From Hylemonella sp. (GTDB lineage: Bacteria > Pseudomonadota > Gammaproteobacteria > Burkholderiales > Burkholderiaceae_C), in the NCBI RefSeq assembly GCF_027532185.1, contig NZ_JAPZSV010000002.1, forward strand, positions 434,001 through 498,000: a DNA stretch of 64,000 nt, given 5' to 3'. Positions within the stretch are counted from its first letter, which is position 1. The number at the start of each line of letters is the position of its first letter. Below the pieces are notes generated by a model. The model was given only the letters and a program-made list of their open reading frames with translations. It was not told where the DNA came from and searched no databases. This document shows, one piece after another, positions 61,411-64,000 of the stretch. Made by a program: the position numbers and the translations under genes.

Positions 61411-62595
61411 ATGGGCCAGAACGTCCTCGTTGCCGGTGTCGGCATGATCCCCTTCGCCAAGCCCGGCGCCCACCGCCCCTACCCCGAGATGGCCGCCGAG
61501 GCTACGCGTGCCGCGCTGGCCGATGCCGGGCTGGACTACGCCCGGGTACAGCAGGCCTATGTGGGCTATGTCTATGGTGACTCCACCGCGGGCCAGCGCG
61601 CGCTCTATGAAGTCGGCCTGAGCGGCATCCCCATCGTCAACGTCAACAACAACTGCTCCACCGGTTCCACCGCGCTCTACCTCGCGCGCCAGGCCGTGGC
61701 CAGCGGCGCGGCCGATTGCGTGCTGGCCCTGGGCTTCGAGCACATGAACCCAGGCGCACTCGGCGCGGTCTTCCAAGACCGGCCCTCGCCCTTCGACCGC
61801 TTCGACAACGCCACCGAGGAACTCGTGGGCCATGCCGAGATTCCGCTCGCGCTGCGCTACTTCGGCGGCGCGGGTCTGGCCCACATGCAGCAGTACGGGA
61901 CCAAACTCGAGACCTTTGCCGCCATCCGCGCCAAAGCCAGCCGCCACGCCGCACACAACCCTCTGGCCCTGTTCCGCAAAGAGGTCACGACCGAAGAGGT
62001 TTTGGCCGCGCCCATGCTCTGGGACGGCGTCATGACCCGCCTCATGGCCTGCCCACCCACCTGCGGTGCCGCCGCGGCTATCGTCTGCTCAGAGGCCTAC
62101 GCGCAGCAGCACGGCCTGGACCGCAGCGTGCGCATCCGCGCCCAGGCCATGACCACCGACACGAAGCAGACCTTCGAGGCGCGCGACATGCGCGAGGTCG
62201 TCGGCTTCTCCATGGCCAAGGAAGCGGCACGCCAGGTCTATGAAAGTGCGGGCATCGGCCCGGAGGATGTGGACGTGGTCGAGTTGCACGACTGCTTCGC
62301 CCACAACGAACTCATCAGCTACGAGGCCCTGGGCCTGTGCCCCGAGGGCGGCGCCGAGAAGTTCGTGATGGACGGCGACAACAGCTACGGCGGCCGTTAT
62401 GTCACCAACCCCTCGGGCGGCCTGCTGAGCAAGGGCCACCCGCTGGGCGCCACGGGCCTGGCCCAGTGCACTGAGCTCGTGCAGCAGCTGCGCGGCCAGG
62501 CCGGTGCGCGCCAGGTGCGAGATGCCCGGCTGGCCCTGCAGCACAACCTGGGCCTGGGCGGGGCCTGCGTGGTCACGCTCTACGAAAAAACCTGA
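61411..62595 (+). CDS. SCPx-like thiolase / acetyl-CoA acetyltransferase family
   Basis: Thiolase-fold protein of 394 residues resembling the lipid-transfer-protein (SCPx) thiolases used in side-chain beta-oxidation: ATG 61411 (MGQNVLVAGVGMIPFAKPG), nucleophile C82 in NVNNNCSTGSTAL, HDCFAHNELISYEAL and the C-terminal GGLLSKGHPLGATGLAQCTEL. It may cleave branched or steroid-like 3-oxoacyl-CoA. A diverged, truncated copy of its last 45 codons lies about 970 bp downstream. Confidence 0.9.
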   Translation: MGQNVLVAGVGMIPFAKPGAHRPYPEMAAEATRAALADAGLDYARVQQAYVGYVYGDSTAGQRALYEVGLSGIPIVNVNNNCSTGSTALYLARQAVASGAADCVLALGFEHMNPGALGAVFQDRPSPFDRFDNATEELVGHAEIPLALRYFGGAGLAHMQQYGTKLETFAAIRAKASRHAAHNPLALFRKEVTTEEVLAAPMLWDGVMTRLMACPPTCGAAAAIVCSEAYAQQHGLDRSVRIRAQAMTTDTKQTFEARDMREVVGFSMAKEAARQVYESAGIGPEDVDVVELHDCFAHNELISYEALGLCPEGGAEKFVMDGDNSYGGRYVTNPSGGLLSKGHPLGATGLAQCTELVQQLRGQAGARQVRDARLALQHNLGLGGACVVTLYEKT

Positions 62596-62624
62596 ACCCG
62601 CACTGCACAGAGGAGGACACCCCC

Positions 62625-62861
62625 ATGAGCCAGGAACAACATCTGCACCTGCAGCACAGCGAATCCGTCGTGGCCCAGATGTCGGCCACCGTCTTCGCGG
62701 CCTTCGTGCGCAACCAGGTCGTGACCGAGGCCAACGAGGACGCGCTGATTGACAAGGCCGTCTCCATCGCCGCGCGACTGGCCAGCCGCGCCGAGAAGCA
62801 CGTCAAGAGTGACCAAGAGTGGGTGCAGAAGGACAGCGGCACCGCGTTTCTCGGCGGCTGA
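62625..62861 (+). CDS. Small hypothetical protein (78 aa)
   Basis: A soluble-looking, His/Gln/Ala-rich protein beginning MSQEQHLHLQHSESVVAQMSA, with a predicted helical middle (TEANEDALIDKAVSIAARLASRAEKHV) and an acidic tail ending TAFLGG. GAGGAGGAC lies upstream at good spacing, so translation is likely. No family was recognised. It is 29 nt after the thiolase gene and probably co-transcribed with it. Confidence 0.7.
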   Translation: MSQEQHLHLQHSESVVAQMSATVFAAFVRNQVVTEANEDALIDKAVSIAARLASRAEKHVKSDQEWVQKDSGTAFLGG

Positions 62862-62881
62862 GGCGCAGCGGAAACGATCTG

Positions 62882-63421
62882 ATGAGCTTGTTCTCGCCTG
62901 TAGTCTCACTGCTGTCGATCCGACCATCCTGGCAATATGACGGCGACTATTTCTTTGCCAGGACATCAACGGCGCTGAGGCTTCTGACGCTGTTCGGCTA
63001 CGAAAGACGACTGCTGATCAACAGGCCGGCGAAGATGATGCGCCTGTCGGTGACCCGATGGTGGTTCTTTCGGGACATCACCGAACTCCCGACCCAGGGC
63101 GTCCGAGGCGTCCTGTATAGCTACAAGGACTTTGGCACGAGCTGGTCCGTCAGCCCCTTCTGGATGGGCAGAACCGACGCCGTGGAAGTTTTCTCCGTCG
63201 GGCTGGCATTGACCGGCCCCGTGGAGCAGATACCCTTGTTCGCCTTTGTCGGCGAAGGCAGCACCGAAACCGGATGGCAAGGGGTCATCCTCGGGGGCGA
63301 CAGCGTTCTTGACGCCCGTGGTGCTCAGACGGAAGACAGCAGAAAATTTGTGGACAAGCTATGCCACGCATTGGGCGTGGGCATCCTTGTTCCTGGGCAG
63401 TTTCGGAGTCCCGGGCACTAG
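62882..63421 (+). CDS. Hypothetical protein, possibly PH-like domain (179 aa)
   Basis: A protein of unknown function with several Trp/Phe-rich beta-strand-like segments ([48 protein letters not shown]) and no membrane helix, reminiscent of bacterial PH-like small domain proteins; that resemblance is from memory. Start ATG 62882 lacks a good Shine-Dalgarno. The base composition looks lower in GC than the neighbouring genes. It sits between the intact thiolase gene and a truncated thiolase 3' end, suggesting acquired DNA. Confidence 0.6.
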
Positions 63422-63431
63422 CCTGCGCGAG

Positions 63432-63569
63432 CTGGCGCAATGCACCGAGCTTGTGCAGCAGCTGCGCGACCACGCCGGCGCCCGCCAGGTGCAGGACGCA
63501 CGCCTGGCCCTGCCGCACAACCTCGGCCTGGGCAGGGCCTGCGTGGTCACGCTCTACGAGCGCGCCTGA
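63432..63569 (+). pseudogene. Truncated second copy of the thiolase 3' end
   Basis: From CTGGCGCAATGCACC to the TGA, 46 codons align without gaps to the last 46 codons of the thiolase gene (62458-62595). By hand count 117 of 138 bases and 38 of 45 residues match ([12 protein letters not shown] start, ACVVTLYE near the end). Many differences are at third positions, so this copy diverged while coding. Nothing upstream of it resembles a thiolase, so it is a remnant of a paralogue that lost its 5' part. Confidence 0.88.
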
Positions 63570-63570
63570 A

Positions 63571-63597
63571 ATAAAAAAAGCCCCTCGCAAGAGGGGC
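63571..63597 (-). terminator. Intrinsic terminator of the fasciclin-domain gene
   Basis: GCCCCTC (63580-63586) pairs with GAGGGGC (63591-63597) around GCAA. On the minus strand the stem is followed by seven T residues (plus 63573-63579), 25 nt past the fasciclin gene stop. Confidence 0.9.
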
Positions 63598-63621: not shown

Positions 63622-64000
63622 TTACTTCGGCAGCACCACGCTGTCGATCACATGGATCACGCCGTTGTCGGTCACGATGTCGGTCTTCACCACGTTGGCG
63701 TTGTCAACCTTGACGCCGCCCATGGTGCTGACGGTCAGCTCGGAGCCCTGCACGGTCTTGACCTTGCCGGCCTTGACATCCTTGGCCATCACCTTGCCCG
63801 GCACCACGTGGTAGGTCAGCACCTTGGTCAGCGCGGCCTTGTCCTTGAGCAGGGCTTCGAGCTGGGCCTTGGGGATCTTGGCGAAGGCTTCGTCGGTGGG
63901 GGCGAACACGGTGAACGGGCCCGGGCCCTTGAGCGTGTCCACCAGGCCGGCGGCCTGCACGGCCGTCACCAGGGTCTTGAAGGAACCGGCCGACACAGCG
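63622..64000 (-). CDS. Fasciclin (FAS1) domain protein, partial (5' end beyond right edge)
   Basis: Secreted or surface FAS1-domain protein, often linked to adhesion. About 126 C-terminal residues are visible: H1 motif [17 protein letters not shown], the conserved [13 protein letters not shown], and H2 motif [14 protein letters not shown] at the C-terminus. A GTG at 63996 is in frame, but the sequence [17 protein letters not shown] there is the middle of the domain's first helix, so the real start and signal peptide lie outside the window. Confidence 0.92.

Follow-up and report, generated by a model that had tools for sequence, protein, structure and literature searches.

The 64,000-nucleotide stretch of DNA analysed here (the window) contains an intact thiolase-like gene of 394 aa (61411-62595, plus strand) and, downstream of it on the same strand, a second copy of its last 46 codons, stop codon included (63432-63569). 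In our judgement, held with slightly more confidence than doubt, this second copy (the relic) is a displaced, non-functional thiolase 3' end that was left behind by a recombination event. Between the two copies lie a 78-aa gene (62625-62861, plus strand) and an orphan ORF of 179 aa (62882-63421, plus strand). The relic is followed by the terminator-like hairpin (63580-63597, minus strand) of a convergent fasciclin-domain gene (63622-64000, minus strand), which continues past the end of the window.

The intact gene is recognised by NCBIfam NF006102 (700 bits, cut-off 436) as well as by Pfam Thiolase_C_1 and Thiolase_N; its product belongs to the PRK08256 subfamily and carries the NCBIfam name lipid-transfer protein. 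Its last 46 codons (62458-62595) and the relic are identical at 117 of 138 bases in an ungapped comparison (84.8%), and a repeat finder returned the same pair (139 nt, 85%). The starts of the copies are 974 bp apart, and the longest exact run common to both comprises 25 bases, which are identical in the related genomes G020, G005 and G016 as well. Third codon positions hold 14 of the 21 base differences, and the changed codons comprise 11 synonymous and 7 non-synonymous ones. Chance similarity is ruled out, as the best ungapped match of the 138-mer elsewhere in the window, on both strands, reaches only 69/138. Immediately 5' of 63432 the homology to thiolase stops in the ungapped comparison. 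Gapped alignments creep further to the left with many gaps (to 63413 against G020, to 63392 or beyond against others), and some 20 bases of decayed thiolase homology may possibly lie there; this extension is left out of the counts given here. The sequence-only reading of this DNA had described a recurrence of the last 46 codons at about 85% identity, with mostly synonymous-type changes, with unrelated sequence upstream and with two ORFs of lower GC between the copies. All these points are borne out, the weak gapped creep aside: the GC content is 0.646 for the 78-aa gene and 0.593 for the 179-aa ORF, compared with 0.686 for the intact thiolase-like gene.

A search of 60 genomes, 25 of them further members of the genus, revealed a close thiolase homologue (at least 85% protein identity) in 13 of these 25, and a homologue at 73-75% in three more distant genomes. 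Besides the own locus, 14 loci of relatives were read. In three of them (G016, G010, G013) the stop codon of the thiolase is followed, within about 10 bases, by an A-run, the hairpin and the fasciclin gene, and the relic precedes the hairpin and the fasciclin gene here just as the thiolase stop does in these three genomes. The hairpin, which has its T-run on the minus strand, recurs unchanged or almost unchanged in G016, G010, G013, G020 and G005 and serves as the landmark for the native right flank of the thiolase end. The fasciclin-domain gene itself (Pfam Fasciclin, 142 bits) is complete in locus L032, with 151 aa. In G005, the 78-aa gene is located between a normal thiolase gene and the hairpin and the relic is absent; in G020 (L033), a TfoX_C gene occupies this place. 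A TfoX_C gene is found behind the thiolase in G023 (L046) too, where the TfoX_C match contains an internal stop and the fasciclin stretch gave no match. TfoX_C matches are present in 8 of the 26 genomes of the genus (7 of them over the cut-off), the own genome being without one. The next gene after thiolase encodes an acyl-CoA dehydrogenase in G002, G025, G024 and G004, MutL in G006 and a tRNA methyltransferase in G031, and a rhodanese-like frame, judged by eye, follows in G018 and G015. The thiolase of G023 reads in two frames, which indicates a frameshift or a sequencing error; for this frame break, G023 was omitted from the tail comparisons, the tract comparison, the trees and the approximately unbiased (AU) tests, and the AU tests were performed without G031 as well.

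The relic is absent from all 14 loci of the relatives, and its place at the native end of the gene can be recognised in three. None of these loci contains a second thiolase end in the same orientation in the stretch read. The survey was extended to 94 loci (the 14 of the relatives and 80 others, with some genomes in both sets and some loci on short contigs), and a second thiolase tail in the same orientation was not found in any of them. The only locus with the tail twice, L101 (Pseudorhodoferax soli), was set aside, as its second tail is part of an inverted paralogue (residues 52-393); the two thiolase paralogues of this locus are convergent and about 2 kb apart. An intact paralogue with an 85%-identical C-terminus is not among the matches listed for the own genome: the best three of the five are the intact gene itself, the relic and a distant match that shares 35% identity.

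The 78-aa gene has an 88% identical homologue in the same place in G005. Over the first 73 codons, dN is 0.036 and dS 0.46 (the last residues differ), and therefore the gene is probably real. Within the genus, 2 of the 26 genomes have it, one of them being the own genome; a sample of 299 genomes from the family gave it once, again in the own genome. No further homologue of the protein was found in viral contigs and plasmids, and family searches gave a best E of 0.068 in Pfam and of 0.15 in PHROGs and nothing in NCBIfam and PADLOC. For the 179-aa ORF, a homologue was not found at E 0.001. Its GC3 (0.739) is the highest among its codon positions and lies below that of the measured neighbour genes (0.87-0.94), as if a coding sequence had come in from elsewhere; possibly it is a cargo gene. 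Sampling covered 26 genomes of the genus, 299 of the family, 300 of the order and 369 of the class, each sample counting the own genome and the first including several incomplete ones among the other 25, and it was detected in the own genome only. It was found neither in the species genome collection and in viral contigs, which were searched with patterns that catch close relatives, nor in phages and plasmids. Pfam and PADLOC gave no family for it, NCBIfam a best E of 0.1 and PHROGs of 0.033. Solved structures yielded nothing credible (best E 1.6), and the AlphaFold model calculated from the single sequence has a mean pLDDT of 34.9.

The relic is identical to the thiolase tail of G005 at 127/138 bases, to that of G016 at 126/138 and to that of G020 at 120/133 aligned bases, compared with 117/138 for the intact tail next to it. 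The 21 differences, 14 of them in third positions, and the greater nearness of G005 and G016 make it unlikely that the tail next door was duplicated recently. However, closeness in the conserved thiolase tail says little, because the own tail has no clear lead over tails from other genera in its match to the relic: among the matches listed for 399 genomes sampled from the family, where G005, G016 and G020 are absent, we found 88% over 128 bases for G305, 87% over 129 for G076 and 86% over 138 for G294, with 88% over 128 for the own tail in the same comparison. That the fragment is closer to the thiolase of another species is true insofar as G005 and G016 surpass the own tail, but the AU test does not settle it. 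A tree with the relic and the own copy as sisters is not rejected (p 0.24 with 138 columns, 0.42 with 129 columns), and uniting the relic with G005 and G016 instead brings no improvement in fit (p 0.36 and 0.35), the likelihood of this second tree on 129 columns being even slightly lower. Support is poor (19 and 35 for the tail tree, 34-47 for the combined tree), too poor for the thiolase-tail trees to place the relic.

Between the relic and the own tail, dS is 0.45 and dN 0.055; for the whole thiolase compared with G020, G005 and G016, dS is 0.33-0.41 and dN about 0.02. Against the same three genomes, the relic has a dN of about 0.055 and the intact tail of about 0.022. Six of the 21 differences are bases private to the relic in comparison with 13 relatives (codon positions 3, 3, 3, 2, 2 and 1), and four of these lead to the replacements G362D, Q363H, Q377P and G384R. 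Three of the four replaced residues are invariant in 13/13 relatives, and one is conserved in 12/13. The natural reading of this pattern is that the fragment gathered its first differences while still part of a functional gene and only later degenerated as a pseudogene. Furthermore, the last two residues of the relic are R-A, in line with the relatives (R in 13/13, followed by A or V), whereas the intact copy ends in a private K-T (K393, T394). The four private bases responsible cluster in 62586-62595 and are possibly the trace of a junction or of repair. When the intact thiolase was compared with the 13 relatives, no tract came close to identity with any of them; the best segment has 94.6% identity.

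We propose that DNA from a related lineage brought in thiolase sequence together with the 78-aa gene and the 179-aa ORF, and that it paired with the thiolase region already present here. The left side of the incoming DNA would have been joined by homologous recombination, and the right side by illegitimate recombination into the resident gene at about codon 350. The incoming thiolase end would thus have become the working end, and the last 138 bases of the resident gene would have been left standing before the fasciclin terminator, where they would have degenerated over time. On the left, the thiolase is collinear with that of the relatives, and a tract boundary to a particular donor is not visible. 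The right edge at 63432 is abrupt in the ungapped comparison, with the weak gapped creep further left; a donor with the 179-aa ORF, against which this junction could be compared for microhomology, was not found. The position and the right flank of the relic are those of the end of the single thiolase in three relatives. Foreign DNA with a homologous end, one of the origins considered in the sequence-only reading, fits better than the other because the relic is at the native end position and is closer to two sister lineages than to its neighbour. The argument from closeness is weakened by the tails of other genera and by the second of the two tree constraints. Recombination is the most likely reading but not a proven one: the tree tests fail to tell it apart from an old duplication, and tails of other genera match the relic as well as the own one.

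Such an old tandem duplication of the thiolase within the lineage, followed by loss of the 5' part of the second copy, with the two small genes inserted or taking its place, appears rather unlikely to us, though it deserves serious consideration. Partial tandem duplications are common. Moreover, the AU test does not reject the relic and the own copy as sisters, an arrangement that is marginally likelier on 129 columns than the one with G005 and G016. However, the relic has fewer differences from G005 and G016 than from the intact copy next to it, and 0 of the 13 same-genus relatives with a close homologue have a second same-strand copy in the stretch read. If the duplication had started from a gene order like that of G005, a second 78-aa gene would be expected after the tandem copy, and instead the hairpin follows the relic. 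A duplication also needs more steps. A second paralogue deprived of its 5' part, the other origin proposed earlier, found no direct support among the matches listed for the own genome or in the 94 loci, with the tree tests leaving it unrejected. A literature search on partial duplication and transfer yielded no paper.

The geometry of the locus, with a working gene of slightly changed C-terminus, cargo and a displaced original end, is also that of a small integrative element remnant that targeted the thiolase 3' end and supplied a substitute; the intact gene would then end in the element's sequence, including the private K-T, and the relic would be the host end. We regard this as very unlikely. 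Neither the interval separating the copies nor any of the ten flanking ORFs examined gave a match to an integrase family, and the three Phage_integrase matches of the genome, the recombinase family covered by the genome-wide search, are all on other contigs. The ten flanking ORFs belong to ordinary chromosomal families, i.e. glutamyl/glutaminyl tRNA synthetase domain, Methyltransf_4, pseudouridine synthase and TctC receptor upstream, and Fasciclin, TetR_N, HDOD, Usp, histidine kinase and EptA/EptB-type transferase downstream. No tRNA or tmRNA gene was found in the 18 kb of L032. In addition, G005 carries the 78-aa gene without any second thiolase end, the exact run of 25 bases need not be an att core, as it is identical in G020, G005 and G016, and traces of such an element elsewhere are missing both from the 94 other thiolase loci (same-strand second tail) and from the genome samples (179-aa homologue). 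The earlier suggestion of a site-specific element restoring the gene end is therefore unsupported. Hardly probable at all is a relic that still works, either as the C-terminus of a 107-aa ORF (63246-63569) or as a regulatory spacer. The frame is open upstream of the relic, Pfam still recognises the tail (29-30 bits, cut-off 28) and the differences from the neighbouring copy are mostly synonymous, but the 107-aa ORF and the 179-aa ORF overlap in different frames, Pfam has no match for the 5' part of the former, and residues invariant in 13 relatives are replaced in the tail. A broader view, which we consider quite unlikely, would treat the junction behind the thiolase as a small, integrase-free exchange site of the genus, where cargo borne on homologous thiolase ends would be exchanged ahead of one fixed terminator. 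According to this same view, its cargo would be nothing, the 78-aa gene, a TfoX_C competence-regulator-like gene, or the 78-aa gene together with the orphan 179-aa ORF.

The relic is a true finding, and recombination with foreign DNA, stripped of the site-specific element, brings the second of the two origins proposed in the sequence-only reading near the mark in outline. The locus documents a local and ordinary event with an orphan ORF inside and is a modest example of an ordinary process. Neither the scar nor the orphan ORF alters current understanding. The scar is small and readable: it illustrates that recombination may place new neighbours beside a single gene with no mobile element involved, the displaced end being the evidence that remains.

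The proposed event resembles homology-facilitated illegitimate recombination, which is reported for the naturally competent Streptococcus pneumoniae, Acinetobacter baylyi and Pseudomonas stutzeri, with insertions and deletions of about 1 kb on average (PMC3240628). In common would be homology on one side and its lack on the other, as well as the scale of about 1 kb inferred here. A product of that process would be expected to show an abrupt non-homologous junction, often with 3-10 bp of microhomology, and an insertion of foreign DNA. In contrast to those reports, the event described here is deduced from the sequence of one genome. Displaced 3' ends have also been proposed for effector-immunity arrays of the type VI system in Vibrio cholerae, and the same source mentions orphan 3' regions of Rhs loci (PMC5361080). 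In these arrays, as proposed for our case, a new module joins upstream and the 3' end of the old gene is shifted downstream; nothing was found to suggest that the 78-aa and 179-aa genes act as effector or immunity genes, and unlike in the arrays, the gene concerned here is a metabolic thiolase and the displacement is single. Finally, in the e14 prophage at icd of Escherichia coli, the insert supplies the 3' end of the gene and a 163-bp pseudogene copy is present at the far side (PMC6379469; also PMC5431349). Whereas e14 is a site-specifically integrating prophage and here no integrase was found and the copies start only 974 bp apart, both loci share a displaced gene end at the far boundary, which in our case is accompanied by the native right flank, namely the hairpin and the fasciclin gene that follow the thiolase stop in G016, G010 and G013.
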